Shown here: piece by piece, positions 4,099-43,553 of the stretch | How positions within the stretch are numbered: position 1 is the first letter of the stretch | How the letters are laid out: the number at the start of each line of letters is the position of its first letter | From: Corynebacterium hindlerae | GTDB lineage: Bacteria; Actinomycetota; Actinomycetes; Mycobacteriales; Mycobacteriaceae | Direction: 5' to 3' | Length of the DNA stretch: 64,000 nt | Assembly (NCBI RefSeq): GCF_014117265.1 | Contig: NZ_CP059833.1 | Coordinates: 1,581,069 to 1,645,068, forward strand | Made by a program: the position numbers and the translations under genes | Notes under the pieces: model-generated | What the model saw: the letters and a program-made list of their open reading frames with translations, nothing else | Databases searched by the model: none | What the model was told of the DNA's origin: nothing

Positions 4099-4725
4099 CT
4101 ACTTGATCCGCGGCACGATGATGAGGGTCGTTGGCTCTTCCAGGTGTGCCTGGCCCACAATGCGGATCTCCGCGAGCCCGCCGCCAGCCTTTTTGATCTC
4201 TTTCGCGTCCCGCTGCAGCTCTTCCGCCACCGAGGATCCTTTGAGGGCAATCATCCTGCCGCCCTTTTTTACCAGCGGGAGGGACCATCCGGCGAGCCGC
4301 CCTAGGGGAGCGACGGCGCGCGACGTCACGACGTCGACAAGCCCCACCTGCGCCCGCACGGCCTTTTCTTCGGCGCGGCCGCGGATGACGGTCACGTTGT
4401 CAAGGCCGAGCTTCTCGACGACCTCCCCCAGGAACACGGAGCGCTTTAGCAGTGGCTCGATCAGAATGATATTCAGGTCAGGACGTGCGATCGCGAGGGG
4501 AATACCCGGAAGACCAGCACCGGAACCGACATCGGCGACGGTCACCCCATGTGGGATCGCCTCCTGCGCCACGGCACAGTTGAGGATGTGGCGCTCCCAG
4601 AGCCTAGGCACCTCACGGGGGCCGATGAAGCCCCTGGTAGAGCCGTCTGTCGCGAGGAGATCGTGGTACTTTTCCGCCAATTCGAGGCGATCCCCGAACA
4701 CATCCGCTGGTTTCACGTGAAACAT
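4099..4725 (-). CDS. rsmG: 16S rRNA m7G527 methyltransferase RsmG
   Basis: RsmG (GidB) methylates G527 of 16S rRNA using S-adenosylmethionine; loss gives low-level streptomycin resistance in several bacteria. The 208-aa length is normal. The SAM-binding loop is [17 protein letters not shown], followed by the acidic IEP strand and the RAVAPL motif seen in the family. The first residues MFHVKP are encoded by a parS-like palindrome, which fixes ATG as the likely start. It follows yidC after a rho-independent terminator, so it may have its own promoter, and leads into parA. No jag/R3H gene lies between yidC and rsmG, unlike in many other actinobacteria. Confidence 0.96.
4709..4724. promoter_or_regulatory. 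parS-like ParB binding site
   Basis: The sequence GGTTTCACGTGAAACA matches the conserved parS palindrome TGTTTCACGTGAAACA at 15 of 16 positions. It overlaps the first codons of rsmG, so the encoded MFHVK peptide and the site are one sequence. It lies 1.6 kb from parB and about 2.2 kb from the first DnaA box, as expected for origin-proximal partition sites. I found no second parS in the window. Confidence 0.9.
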
Positions 4726-6487: not shown

Positions 6488-7245
6488 GGTTACACTCCTA
6501 AAGTTCTGATCGGGAGACGTCATGGCTGCGAAAAATTGGCTGGCGCGCTTAACGACGCCAGTTGTTCAAAATCCGCGGCCCTTAGGTCACCCTGGTTTGG
6601 ATGATTGTTAACAACTCGGACGTTGAAATGTGTCGCACACGCTTAGCTAAGCGGCGCGTCACAGGCCGACTAACTTCCGAGCCGCCAGGCTTGAAGAACA
6701 AACCCGGCGTTATGCACACCAAAATCTAGTGATGTGACAGACAGGTGAAATCCTACGCTATGGCTGGGTGCGAACCAAATCGACACGCCGGGGGAAATGA
6801 CTACCCCTTGAATGACATTTTTGTAATTCGAGCGCTGGTAGGACGCGTTTTTGCACGGTTATCCACATGTAGCATGTTCACTACAGAGTGGGGCATTTTC
6901 CCTATGTAGACAGGGTGCGCGAGAGCCGAGTAAGTATAGAAATACGCGTTTCATTCACAGCCTGTGCGTAAACCAAAATGTGTATAACTCTCGACCAAAA
7001 CTTTAGAGTTTAAAATTTCATCGCTAAAGATGCAGGTCACAAGGTTTTCCACCCCCATGAAAGTTATCCACAGGCTATGACGTATCCTGTGTATAACTTG
7101 GTGTAAAAAGTTATCCACAGGTGTGTACAACTCTGTGGAAGCACAGGACAATGACAATTTCATGATGTGGACAACCTATCCACCGCCAAAAGAACAACCG
7201 TCCGACCACATCCATCGGACAACTGCGTAGCAAAAAGGAATGTAA
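6488..7245. other. Replication origin oriC (rpmH-dnaA gap) with DnaA boxes
   Basis: No gene lies in these 758 bp. Perfect DnaA boxes TTATCCACA occur at 6859, 7064 and 7111 (plus orientation), and near matches of the form TTATACACA at 6979 and 7088 on the minus strand, with TTTTCCACC at 7045. The stretch from about 6940 to 7030 is AT-rich (for example ttaaaatttca near 7010) and could be the unwinding element. Divergent rpmH and dnaA flank it, the normal actinobacterial oriC setting. The dnaA promoter should lie in the last 150 bp. Confidence 0.92.
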
Positions 7246-8835: not shown

Positions 8836-9073
8836 CTATCCACAGATGTTATCCACACCTGTGTAATTACAAGAGTGTGATTCCGTGAAACAGCACACAA
8901 GCGGGCATGTGCAAAACTACGGCAAATCTGTGCAAGAACACGTGGATCATTTGTGGATAACCAACGACTGGCAAAAGTATCCCCAACCGGCCATTGTTAT
9001 CCACAGATCATTCACATGCCATCCACACGCTAGGATTGAAGCGATGAGCTGTGGAAAACCCGAGTTATCCACA
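8836..9073. other. DnaA-box cluster between dnaA and dnaN
   Basis: Perfect TTATCCACA boxes occur at 8849, 8997 and 9065 (plus) and 8952 (minus), with CTATCCACA at 8836 and TTTTCCACA at 9050 (minus). The dnaA-dnaN gap (8695-9250, 556 bp) contains no other gene. Clusters here serve as the second half of bipartite origins in many bacteria; whether unwinding occurs on this side is not shown. The dnaN promoter probably lies between 9100 and 9230. Confidence 0.88.
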
Positions 9074-9250: not shown

Positions 9251-10432
9251 ATGGAGACATCAATTTCATTCCGTGTGGCCAAGGACGATTTGGCTAGCGC
9301 GGTGGCTTGGGTTGCACGTAGCTTGCCGTCGAAGCCAACTCAGCCGGTGCTCCGTGGCATGCTGATCACCGCAGACGATGATGGTCTTGAGCTTGCTGGC
9401 TTTGACTATGAGGTGTCTACCAAGCAACGAATTTCTGCCGAGGTTTCCCAAAATGGCCGCATTGCTGTTGCCGGTAAACTGATCGCGGATATCACCAGCA
9501 CGTTGCCTAACAAGCCTGTTGATGTCACGGTTGATGGTTCCAAGGTGCTGCTTTCTTGTGGCGCTTCTCGCTTCGAGCTGCCGAGCATTCCACTCGATGA
9601 TTACCCGCAGCTCCCTGCCCTCCCTGAGGTCACCGGTGCGATCGACCCGAAGCTCTTCACCGAGGCCGTCACCCAGGTTGCTACGGCTGCTGGCCGCGAC
9701 GAGACCCTCCCGATGCTTACTGGCGTCCACTTTGAGGTTCACGGCGAAGATGTACTGCTGGCCGCTACAGACCGATTCCGTCTTGCCGTGCGCAACTTCA
9801 ACTGGATTCCGCGGAACCCGCAGGTAGAAGCCAAGTTGCTGATCCCAGCGAAGACGCTCTTGGAAAACGCCCGCAGCCTGGATACCAGCCTCAACGATCC
9901 TGTTGAGATCGCGGTGGGCAACGATGAACAGATCGGTAGCGATGGTCTGTTTGGTGTGCACGCCGACACCCGCCAGACCACCACGCGTATGCTCGACGCG
10001 GACTTCCCGAATTTCCGCCCGCTGCTGCCGAAGTCTCACACCTCCATCGCCAGCGTGGAGATTGCACCGCTTCTCGACGCCATCCGCCGCGTTGCCCTCG
10101 TTGCTGACCGCAACGCGCAGATCCGCATGAGCTTCTCTGAGGGCCAGGTCGTGCTGGACGCGGGCGGCAACGATTCCGGCCATGCAGAGGAAGTTCTTCC
10201 GTGTGCTTTTGCAGGTGAACCGCTGCACATCGCGTTTAACCCGGGTTATCTGAAGGACGGTCTAGCCGTGATTAACACGAATCGTGTTGTTTTCGGTTTC
10301 ACGCAGCCTTCTCGCCCGGCGATCATGATTCCGGAGCCAGAGGTGTTGCCTGAGGCTGATGGCAATGGTGAGTTCCCGACCCCAGCCACGGACTTCACCT
10401 ATTTGTTGATGCCAGTTCGCCTGCCGGGCTAA
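9251..10432 (+). CDS. dnaN: DNA polymerase III beta sliding clamp
   Basis: DnaN forms the ring-shaped dimer that tethers DNA polymerase III and many repair factors. The 393-aa protein has three repeated clamp folds; the second includes LPMLTGVHFEVHGEDVLLAATDRFRLAVR and the end reads FTYLLMPVRLPG, the usual C-terminal tail (M-P-x-R-x) next to the partner-binding pocket. An AGGAG lies about 13 nt before ATG 9251. The stop codon abuts the recF ATG (TAAATG), so the two are coupled. Confidence 0.98.
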   Translation: METSISFRVAKDDLASAVAWVARSLPSKPTQPVLRGMLITADDDGLELAGFDYEVSTKQRISAEVSQNGRIAVAGKLIADITSTLPNKPVDVTVDGSKVLLSCGASRFELPSIPLDDYPQLPALPEVTGAIDPKLFTEAVTQVATAAGRDETLPMLTGVHFEVHGEDVLLAATDRFRLAVRNFNWIPRNPQVEAKLLIPAKTLLENARSLDTSLNDPVEIAVGNDEQIGSDGLFGVHADTRQTTTRMLDADFPNFRPLLPKSHTSIASVEIAPLLDAIRRVALVADRNAQIRMSFSEGQVVLDAGGNDSGHAEEVLPCAFAGEPLHIAFNPGYLKDGLAVINTNRVVFGFTQPSRPAIMIPEPEVLPEADGNGEFPTPATDFTYLLMPVRLPG

Positions 10433-42103: not shown

Positions 42104-42778
42104 ATGCTGAAAGCTTGGTGGCGGCAAGCCCCAGTTACTGTCTTTTTCTGCAGCCTCATGATTGTCGCCTATGTGGCAACGGCCCTGCAGTCGCTGTCCT
42201 TAATGGAAAACCTTTCCGGTTCATCCTTGGGGAATGCCTCACTTTTGTATCTTCCCTTGATGACCTCGCCGTTAGGGCCGCTCCGAGCGCTCTTGTCTGC
42301 CTTCATGCATTTGGGTCCAGCGCATTTGACGCTCAACCTGGTGCTGCTGTTTCTGTTAGGCAGGGAAGTGGAGATCAGTTACGGCTCCCGGTTGTATCTG
42401 CTGGTCTGGCTCTTTGCCGCGATAGGTGCCAGCGCCGTAACCGTGTGGATGGATCCACTCGCCTCCACAGTGGGTGCCTCTGGGGTGGGATACGCGCTCA
42501 TGGTGCTGTTCTTATTCGTGGTGCGTCGCCGCGGTGGTGACCTCCGTGGCCCACTGGTGCTCATCATCGCGAACATCATGTACACCCTGATAACGCCCAC
42601 GGTATCGCTATGGGGGCATATGGGGGGATTGCTGGCGGGGCTAGTTTTGTCGTTTGGCCTGCAGTTTTCTTCTCCCGCGTATCGGTGGGTGGCCATATCG
42701 GGCATCGGGCTTGGGTTCATTGTTCTATTGCTGTGGAAAATCTCATTGTTCGCTACCAGCGGTTTTTGGGCCCTTTAA
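42104..42778 (+). CDS. Rhomboid-family intramembrane serine protease
   Basis: The 224-aa protein has about six to seven membrane helices. The catalytic Ser is in TVGASGVGYALM (GxSG) and the His in LWGHMGGLLAGL; the Asn of the oxyanion site is in HLTLNLVLLFLLGREVE. It is therefore a complete rhomboid protease, cutting membrane proteins within the bilayer. It starts at ATG 42104, 78 bp after ppiA. A terminator and a DnaA-box cluster follow. Confidence 0.92.
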   Translation: MLKAWWRQAPVTVFFCSLMIVAYVATALQSLSLMENLSGSSLGNASLLYLPLMTSPLGPLRALLSAFMHLGPAHLTLNLVLLFLLGREVEISYGSRLYLLVWLFAAIGASAVTVWMDPLASTVGASGVGYALMVLFLFVVRRRGGDLRGPLVLIIANIMYTLITPTVSLWGHMGGLLAGLVLSFGLQFSSPAYRWVAISGIGLGFIVLLLWKISLFATSGFWAL

Positions 42779-42792
42779 ACTCCATACACACG

Positions 42793-43070
42793 TTATCCCC
42801 ACCCACCCCGGTGGGGAATTTTTATGCCTAGTTATCCCCAGAGGTTATCCACAATGTGGATAACTACATTCTTGTAATTTCCGAAAAAGTCGTTCACTTC
42901 TTTGCCAGTATCCAGGCAATTTGCGCAATTCTTCGCACAACAGTGCGGTAGTGGACAAGTAGTACACAGAGTTATCCACAGGCTGTGGAAAATGTGGAAA
43001 CTCGTATCTCTGAGTGCTATTCACAGTTTTGTCCCCAGCCTGTGGATAACTTACCGGAGATTATCCACAG
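42793..43070. other. Dense DnaA-box cluster away from oriC
   Basis: Five perfect TTATCCACA boxes lie within 226 bp: 42845, 42972 and 43062 (plus), 42855 and 43042 (minus), plus TTTTCCACA at 42984 (minus) and TTATCCCCA at 42793 and 42832. The density exceeds that of the rpmH-dnaA gap. The region (42779-43286) contains no gene. It is 34 kb from dnaA, so it is more likely a titration or regulatory site than part of oriC; a role in replication control is inference. Confidence 0.85.
42797..42823 (+). terminator. Terminator after the rhomboid gene
   Basis: CCCCACC and GGTGGGG pair around CACCCC, then AATTTTT. It is 19 bp after the stop codon and overlaps the first DnaA-like box of the cluster. Confidence 0.8.
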
Positions 43071-43113
43071 GGGTGGAATAGCATCTGTGTAATTTACCTC
43101 AGAGAAAGCAAAA

Positions 43114-43180
43114 GCCGGATTTGGTAATGCAACTTGACGCCTAGGGCGCCAAAAGTACGGTTAGCATTACCAAATCCGGC
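43114..43180. repeat. 67-bp palindrome, copy 1
   Basis: GCCGGATTTGGTAATGC and its complement enclose a 33-nt centre. The next copy at 43207-43275 shares the arms and parts of the centre (TTGAC, CTAG, AAAA). Confidence 0.85.
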
Positions 43181-43206
43181 ACAGGTTATTCACCCAGAAA
43201 AAACAA

Positions 43207-43275
43207 TGTCGGATTTGGTAAAGCAAATTGACCTCTAGCTCACTAAAACGTCAGTTTGCATTACCAAATCCGACA
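43207..43275. repeat. 69-bp palindrome, copy 2
   Basis: TGTCGGATTTGGTAAAGCAAA pairs with its near complement ending CCAAATCCGACA, around a centre similar to copy 1. It ends 12 bp from the crgA stop. There is no T-run, so it is not a plain terminator. Confidence 0.85.
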
Positions 43276-43286
43276 CGCGGATGTCT

Positions 43287-43553
43287 CTAGCGCCACCCCA
43301 TGGTCATCAGTAGCCCGATGATGAATAGTCCGAAGCCGATGCCGTAGTTCCATGGTCCCAGTTCGCGCATGAAGGAGATGTCTTGTCCGGCGAGGTAGTT
43401 CACTACGAGCCAGAGTAGTCCGGCGAGCATGAAGCCGAACATGATGATCTTGTACCACATGGGGGTGCCGGAGGAGCTGATCTTTACCGGGGTTCGGCTG
43501 GTTGCGGAAGAGCTTACCGGGCTAGAGGTTTGAGAAACTTTTGCTTTAGGCAT
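43287..43553 (-). CDS. crgA: Cell division protein CrgA
   Basis: CrgA is a small membrane protein of the actinobacterial divisome that recruits FtsI and limits Z-ring activity. The 88-aa product has a Ser/Thr-rich N-terminus ([17 protein letters not shown]), TM1 ([21 protein letters not shown]), the short [13 protein letters not shown] loop and TM2. The location next to pknB is conserved. Confidence 0.93.

Follow-up and report, generated by a model that had tools for sequence, protein, structure and literature searches.

The 64,000-nucleotide stretch of the Corynebacterium hindlerae chromosome analyzed here (NCBI RefSeq assembly GCF_014117265.1, contig NZ_CP059833.1, positions 1,581,069 to 1,645,068 of the forward strand; this whole stretch is called the window, and bare coordinates refer to it) has DnaA boxes packed densely into the gap between a rhomboid-family gene and the division gene crgA. 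The array looks like the Corynebacterium form of an element found beside crgA across much of the Actinomycetes. Judged from sequence, this gap site would be bound by DnaA, and we lean, if only modestly, towards a reading in which an origin-proximal complex sequesters or inactivates DnaA, much as the datA locus does in Escherichia coli, and limits re-initiation.

The box array and its conservation in Corynebacterium

The gap (42779–43286) is flanked by convergent genes that were both assigned via Pfam, the rhomboid-family gene (42104–42778, +; PF01694) and crgA (43287–43553, −; PF06781). It contains five perfect TTATCCACA boxes, at 42845 (+), 42855 (−), 42972 (+), 43041 (−) and 43061 (+), and three near matches, TTATCCCCA at 42793 (+) and 42832 (+) and TTTTCCACA at 42984 (−). 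An earlier note on the same DNA had reported these five perfect boxes and three near matches about 34 kb from dnaA; both statements hold, with a span of 225 bp by our recount and 34.2 kb between the end of dnaA (8694) and the first perfect box. Perfect boxes occur 12 times in the window and in three places only, namely the rpmH–dnaA gap (3) and the dnaA–dnaN gap (4), as the note had counted, and the rhomboid–crgA gap (5). That the density exceeds chance is likewise confirmed: 100 dinucleotide-preserving shuffles of the window gave a mean of 0.21 perfect boxes, and perfect boxes number 43 in the genome as a whole, compared with 7 occurrences of the reversed word.

The boxes fall into two modules. 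Module 1 begins with box a, the near match TTATCCCCA (42832–42840, +), followed at 13 bp by box b (perfect TTATCCACA, 42845–42853, +) and at a further 10 bp by box c (perfect, 42855–42863, −), which stands head-to-head with b; then comes motif X (AACTACATTCTTGTAATT, 42862–42879, no strand), an imperfect palindrome that runs over the last two bases of box c. Box a is counted in the element because it lies exactly 13 bp before box b, the commonest spacing of like-oriented boxes in other genera (12 pairs). The 35-base pattern of module 1, with at most three mismatches allowed, occurs a single time in the genome, at this gap. Module 2 begins 127 bp past box b with box d (perfect, 42972–42980, +), adjoined by the near match TTTTCCACA (42984–42992, −), and includes box e (perfect, 43041–43049, −) 69 bp past box d; box f (perfect) follows at 43061–43069 (+). 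Boxes d and e face each other, and the arm TTATCCACAGGCTGTGGA by box d is mirrored, with a mismatch, before box e.

We compared the gap across corynebacteria, a check that the note had proposed, starting from 191 crgA loci that reduced to 130 distinct ones after removal of identical crgA DNA. An array, taken as at least three perfect boxes within 400 bp on the crgA side, and also on the rhomboid side where the rhomboid gene lies elsewhere, was present near rhomboid or crgA in 99 of the 130 (104 with box variants counted). The array usually comes after the rhomboid stop codon. When the search was anchored there (151 loci with a rhomboid match, 113 regions after dropping duplicates and open ends), 89 of the 113 distinct regions had three or more perfect boxes in the 700 bp that follow it, compared with 8 boxes in 147,633 bp upstream. 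The array is kept with the rhomboid gene where that gene lies ~10–20 kb from crgA (G045, G174, G139 and G181), and it stays between ppiA and crgA where the stretch gave no rhomboid gene (L069, L095, L100 and L103). Corynebacterium gallinarum (L077) is among the species with the array. A rhomboid protein scan of genome contigs found no relative. In 64 of 64 genomes crgA lies downstream of dnaA, on the dnaN side in the window, at a median distance of 30.9 kb (range 13.9–159 kb; hand-placed distances from genomes with dnaA and crgA listed on one contig, G156 being omitted with a contig start between the two).

Two loci stand out in this set. The largest array seen, in L065, has fifteen perfect boxes in ~500 bp, 22–517 bp past the rhomboid stop. 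In L224 (G173), repeats like clustered regularly interspaced short palindromic repeats (CRISPR) come right after the rhomboid stop, where other species carry the array, and a box pair lies ~27 kb further on.

A module shared with other Actinomycetes and with the origin

Outside Corynebacterium, crgA itself provides the anchor, being found in 151 of 151 genomes of the family and 169 of 216 of the class. Among the distinct loci fetched, excluding those with less than 300 bp downstream of crgA, 47 of 51 from other genera of the family and 22 of 30 from other families have TT[AG]TCCACA no further than 400 bp from the crgA stop. A Markov model predicts 0.2 loci per group, and the other side of crgA gave 0 of 32 and 0 of 9. 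The X core, loosely defined as ACR-N4-YGT on either strand and no more than 45 bp from the box (background 0.039 per 36 positions), accompanies the box in 41 of these 47 and 14 of these 22 loci; its distance from the start of the box is exactly 35 bp in 32 of the 55 and 22 bp in 7. In most extracted modules (39 of 46) the box is accompanied by another box-like word and also by one in the opposed orientation, such as TGGGGATGA, with at most two mismatches from the consensus.

A profile built from these 46 non-Corynebacterium modules only finds module 1 as its best match in the window (alignment 42831–42880, envelope to 42883, +; E 3.5e-07), ahead of the dnaA–dnaN gap (4.3e-05) and the rpmH–dnaA gap (0.007). 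It also matches 73 of 123 Corynebacterium regions and none of 123 shuffled ones. The window site has the layout of the class, with boxes downstream of crgA and a 13-bp head-to-tail pair, an opposed box and X in fixed order. The note had placed the element "in this lineage", which is too narrow, as the site recurs beside crgA in other Actinomycetes.

One member of this group has already been studied. In Mycobacterium tuberculosis, a DnaA pull-down of genomic DNA made five regions stand out, including oriC, rpmH–dnaA and Rv0010c–Rv0011c (Hicks et al. 2020, PMC7738170); gel shift confirmed the last, chromatin immunoprecipitation in Mycobacterium smegmatis found the same five (PMC7738170), and Rv0011c is CrgA (PMC6656915). 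The palindrome at this site shows recurrent changes in clinical strains, with longer cells, which resemble those of dnaA variants, and altered drug susceptibility (PMC7738170). According to that paper the site has no obvious counterpart in other bacterial species; the loci described here supply one.

The neighbours of the site vary. Many Mycobacteriaceae loci have a PH-domain gene between the site and the rhomboid gene (PF10756 in one example tested), and outside Corynebacterium this gene, which is on the same strand as crgA, often has its start right beyond the box. A PH-domain open reading frame (ORF) is present in 51 outgroup stretches and in none of the Corynebacterium stretches, and in other families the rhomboid gene converges on the gap in 24 of 30 loci, ending 58–396 bp from the crgA stop and leaving no room for a PH-domain gene. 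This neighbour is thus not defining for the crgA-linked class, and because it is absent in Corynebacterium and the rhomboid gene converges directly elsewhere, the site does not depend on one neighbour.

These arrangements bear on whether the boxes instead regulate transcription of a neighbour (crgA, the rhomboid gene or the PH-domain gene), or whether the b–c palindrome is simply a terminator. The start of the PH-domain gene just past the box would suit such a role, DnaA and MtrA are transcription factors, and the b–c palindrome itself scores as terminator-like, which is a point against the function that we prefer. We nevertheless consider a transcriptional role quite unlikely, as the window gap is convergent and has no promoter-like site, the rhomboid gene converges on the gap in most other-family loci, Corynebacterium lacks the PH-domain gene, and expression of Rv0010c and Rv0011c is reported as unaltered in dnaA mutants (PMC7738170); a bare terminator, moreover, needs neither single-orientation boxes nor variants matched to those of the origin. 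A promoter scan of the gap returned 0 sigma-70-type sites against a shuffle mean of 1.2, and with convergent flanking genes we rejected a promoter role. Terminator-like sites number 4 against a shuffle mean of 1.0 in a consensus scan that is no proof of function. The scan marks a hairpin with a T run 3′ of the rhomboid gene (42796–42822, +); if it works, boxes b–f would fall outside the rhomboid transcript. Given this hairpin and the lack of a promoter-like site in the scan, the boxes probably lie between transcription units.

Between the array and crgA (43114–43278), the window also has two ~70-bp hairpins with a common GGATTTGGTAA, and ~20 more places in the genome match, so that these hairpins would belong to a family like repetitive extragenic palindromic elements or miniature inverted-repeat transposable elements. 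An Rfam scan returned just five microRNA models on hairpin repeats, all under gathering scores, and these were taken as chance.

In five loci of one family with genomes of 6–10 Mb (L348–L352), three or four strong boxes stand beside crgA and X is not in its usual place. Here GTCACACCGGCGTCAAC precedes the boxes in three loci and a near form of it in two, a direct repeat with an 11-bp period like that of the MtrA motif. These boxes are perhaps one of the known Streptomyces clusters.

Motif X ties the gap site to the origin. Its class form is AATNACA-N4-TGTNATT, with the aligned non-Corynebacterium sites reading AATNACA-N4-TGTRATT. With at most one mismatch it occurs at three places in the window, one per DnaA-box cluster: in module 1, in the rpmH–dnaA gap (6815–6828, +; one mismatch), and in the dnaA–dnaN gap. 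There it forms part of a whole module copy (8836–8885, +), the second-best profile match, in which CTATCCACA at 8836 and TTATCCACA at 8849 are 13 bp apart and X follows at 8865 with one mismatch. The word TACATNNTTGTAATT is present in 56 of 201 genus genomes, mostly once, and its reversed form has 3 matches in all 201; hand sorting placed 34 of the 60 listed occurrences at the rhomboid–crgA cluster, 16 near dnaA and 2 probably at the origin, with 8 elsewhere or unplaced. At up to three mismatches, X occurs in 80 of 113 rhomboid 3′ regions and in 25 of 565 shuffles. At up to two mismatches it was found in 15 of the 20 Corynebacterium origins fetched, a fraction that overstates its frequency in that half of them were chosen for a known X (5 of the ten not preselected have it).

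The leading candidate for a factor binding X is MtrA, to which we assign somewhat less than an even chance; a symmetric dimeric factor is the alternative. For MtrA of Corynebacterium glutamicum the published consensus is RTAACAAT, an 8-bp word repeated directly across a 3-bp linker (PMC3353115), and for that of M. tuberculosis it is a pair of 7-bp direct repeats separated by 4 bp (PMC11215152), so that both have an 11-bp period. MtrA is also reported to bind oriC in M. tuberculosis and Streptomyces venezuelae (PMC5487470). Read as a direct repeat, X fits the MtrA motif well in one half and only partly in the other, and a tandem binder would not need its palindromic symmetry.

Box variants were compared between cluster and origin. 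Of the 8 boxes in the G032 cluster stretch, 7 are TTTTCCACA, which is also the most frequent type at that origin (5 of 13), and in the window, G045, G023 and G117 TTATCCACA is commonest at both cluster and origin. In the clusters of G189 and G124 most boxes read TTATGCACA (6 of 8 and 5 of 6). The box variant at the site covaries with that at the origin, clearly in one lineage (G032) and partially in another (G189/G124). Since the site tracks the box type of the origin, it is most simply read as DnaA-bound.

The shared module also raises the idea that the site is itself a secondary or former replication origin, as the note had suggested with its secondary initiation site; the duplex is locally weak at module 1. 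This suggestion is not supported, and we rate an origin, present or past, as very unlikely. The weakest 50 bp of the gap lies at the 0.371 percentile of the window, less weak than in the dnaA–dnaN gap (0.019) or the rpmH–dnaA gap (0.067; nearest-neighbour values), and the cumulative GC skew has its minimum at 10137 and makes no turn at 43 kb. A secondary origin was rejected on these two grounds. A DnaA-trio after box c, looked for by eye against the consensus, was not seen. Elsewhere in the window, 4709–4724 reads GGTTTCACGTGAAACA, which resembles the parS consensus.

Several counts weigh against a class-wide, origin-linked element. Within Corynebacterium, 26 of the 130 distinct loci lack an array even when box variants are counted; the crgA loci came from some of the genomes listed, themselves a part of the 200 genomes with a match, and distant members of the genus are under-sampled. 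Measured from the crgA stop itself, just 46 of 137 Corynebacterium loci have a box in the nearest 400 bp, a low count that arises because the array goes with the rhomboid gene. The outgroup profile misses 50 of the 123 Corynebacterium regions, and X at up to three mismatches is missing from 33 of the 113 rhomboid 3′ regions, the shuffles cited above containing it by chance. Among the outgroups, 4 of 51 and 8 of 30 distinct loci have no strong box (of the outgroup rows listed, 12 are without any box and L315 has only a weak one), and 14 box-bearing loci lack the X core, loosely as it is defined. A strict X palindrome beside dnaA was found in none of 13 outgroup genomes in the first 4.5 kb of the contig, where dnaA was confirmed for 12 of the 13. 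The covariation, too, is incomplete: the origins of G189 and G124, which are kin with 82% rhomboid identity, are mixed, with 4 and 3 copies of TTATGCACA, 3 and 4 of TTGTGCACA and 3 and 4 of TTATCCACA.

Box spacing and the proposed DnaA complex

The spacing of opposed boxes suggests more than a loose collection. The 10-bp +/− pair occurs 45 times in the 123 Corynebacterium regions, and among +/− pairs at 50–100 bp in these regions, 67 of 72 are within 1 bp of 60, 70 or 80, in classes of 59–60 bp (32 pairs), 69–71 bp (26) and 79–80 bp (9). Like-oriented boxes at 110–155 bp are also periodic, most strongly at 11 among the periods 10, 10.5 and 11. A naive Rayleigh test (p ~1e-24) ignores kinship, and a test on distinct distances alone gives p ~0.04, which tempers the case. 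On a tree of 62 rhomboid proteins, from 63 regions with exactly one +/− pair of 50–100 bp before a length filter, all rows but one (61) keep to 60, 70 or 80 bp with a tolerance of 1 bp, the exception having 82 bp; the spacing labels require six changes with the 82-bp row included (bootstrap range 5–7 for the 70-bp label). We regard the evidence that the array would keep helical register as good but not overwhelming, and module 2 appears to be a Corynebacterium addition whose spacing varies by whole helical turns.

Copy number and inter-box sequence vary between species, as would be expected from chance or from simple expansion of a functionless box-like word. We give this explanation almost no credence in view of the conservation, the fixed geometry, the match to the outgroup profile and the covariation with the origin.

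The note had called the site a DnaA reservoir, timing element or secondary initiation site. That it is a DnaA-binding control element is well supported by its conservation, the class-wide module, the covariation of box variants and the reported mycobacterial DnaA binding (PMC7738170). A bare reservoir may fare less well, as fixed geometry and helical spacing favour an ordered complex over a mere reservoir or sink.

In the mechanism that we favour, DnaA would bind boxes a, b and c of module 1 beside, and partly overlapping, palindrome X, which would be bound by a second factor, and DnaA on modules 1 and 2 in helical register would form an ordered or looped complex. The site would be copied one to two minutes after the origin (at the C. 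glutamicum fork speed of ~340 bases/s given in PMC5461407, 34 kb takes ~100 s). Its DnaA-binding capacity would then double just after firing, lowering free or active DnaA and delaying re-initiation, as with E. coli datA. DnaA binding in Corynebacterium, the factor on X, the looping and the lowering of initiation are what we infer; on the last of these the sequence points both ways, as the opposed box resembles a DARS core and the closeness to the origin resembles datA.

The opposite sign would follow if the site acted like DARS, with DnaA bound to adenosine diphosphate (ADP) assembling on the head-to-head boxes, releasing ADP and promoting initiation. The DARS core formally has this layout, with a fixed spacing between two boxes of like orientation and a third that opposes them (PMC5742627), and boxes a, b (+) and c (−) at 42832, 42845 and 42855 reproduce it, in layout only and with a being a near match; ordered geometry likewise suggests activity beyond titration, and for the mycobacterial site PMC7738170 offers either titration or nucleotide exchange. 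These points detract from sequestration, but the site lies near the origin like datA, and DARS1 and DARS2 are described as lying between oriC and terC. We therefore see a DARS-like activity as fairly unlikely.

A checkpoint or tether is a further alternative, in which a DnaA–X complex pairs with the origin, or couples replication to division via MtrA and crgA, with free DnaA little changed. It draws on the module and X being common to the Corynebacterium origin, on the X half-sites that partly fit MtrA motifs and the binding of MtrA to oriC (PMC3353115, PMC11215152, PMC5487470), and on the longer cells of M. tuberculosis site variants, like those of dnaA variants (PMC7738170). Against it, the Corynebacterium array leaves crgA when the rhomboid gene moves, and among the papers listed for MtrA and crgA together none was seen to link the two. 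We judge this alternative unlikely, somewhat more so than DARS-like activity, and retain sequestration or inactivation of DnaA as the preferred reading.

Significance and comparison with known systems

The mycobacterial site, and DnaA-box clusters of this general kind, are already known. New, as far as our searches show, are the spread across much of the class, the shared module with X and its occurrence at the origin in Corynebacterium, the enlarged, helically spaced form and the covariation with origin boxes; a literature search of open-licence articles found no paper that joins these points or ties crgA to a Corynebacterium DnaA cluster. The boldest version of our reading, which we put forward only tentatively and with more doubt than confidence, is that Actinomycetes share one crgA-side DnaA-control element, whose origin-type module combines boxes with an 18-bp palindrome that another cell-cycle factor, perhaps MtrA, would bind. 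The Corynebacterium version would have become a two-module, helically phased loop machine switching DnaA off shortly after every initiation, with the cryptic M. tuberculosis site as a reduced form. If true, the Corynebacterium element would fill the role that SeqA, Hda and datA have in E. coli. Restraint of replication initiation is poorly known in actinobacteria, and a recurrent near-origin site that is DnaA-bound in mycobacteria and enlarged in Corynebacterium offers a compact target that can be deleted in a harmless laboratory species; the comparison also gives the cryptic M. tuberculosis site an evolutionary frame and names a specific palindrome as bait for its binding protein.

Other box groups came to light outside the gap and the origin. 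Two boxes 40 bp apart (L013; G000:C1:1267258 and 1267298) lie just upstream of a 341-amino-acid ORF without a Pfam match, which resembles the septum-site protein Ssd; like-oriented pairs 40–41 bp apart also occur in G137, G102 and G149. Opposed pairs 15–16 bp apart are found at G000:C1:430170/430185, 1856540/1856556 and 2155433/2155448, the first upstream of a 124-amino-acid ORF that resembles YraN. Three perfect boxes lie downstream of rplI (L019; G000:C1:1428924, 1429128 and 1429143), a gene next to Rv0057 and dnaB in M. tuberculosis. One of the DnaA sites reported for that species lies in Rv0057, on the upstream side of dnaB (PMC7738170), and a second non-origin DnaA site, near rplI, may also be conserved.

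Among known systems, the Rv0010c–Rv0011c site occupies the same gap beside crgA, where the published account describes a small palindrome among clustered box-like words. In Corynebacterium the site has grown far larger, with five perfect boxes and a second module, and it is convergent and without an Rv0010c-like gene. In Bacillus subtilis, box clusters likewise lie outside oriC, and joint loss of the six advances initiation (PMC5295017). Unlike the single array here, these clusters have a strong effect only on removal of all six, and the passage concerned mentions no companion motif; the same review also states that no cluster with a significant role has been identified in this species, a point against sequestration.

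DARS1 and DARS2 share with the window array one box opposed to two others at fixed spacing; they differ in not being origin-proximal, and DARS2 depends on IHF and Fis. In the E. coli DARS and datA loci few consensus boxes were found, only one of them in DARS1. Streptomyces coelicolor has the clusters H69, H24 and D78 around oriC, one of which could be this same gap. Like the window array they belong to the origin region, and an analogous restraining role is cited for them in PMC5742627. In E. coli, initiation is held back by datA, which lies between genes and close to the origin (PMC5742627, PMC4585315), and the window array is, like it, a non-coding, origin-proximal box cluster outside oriC, intergenic and downstream of its flanking genes; datA needs IHF and same-direction boxes, whereas the window array has an opposed box and palindrome X.
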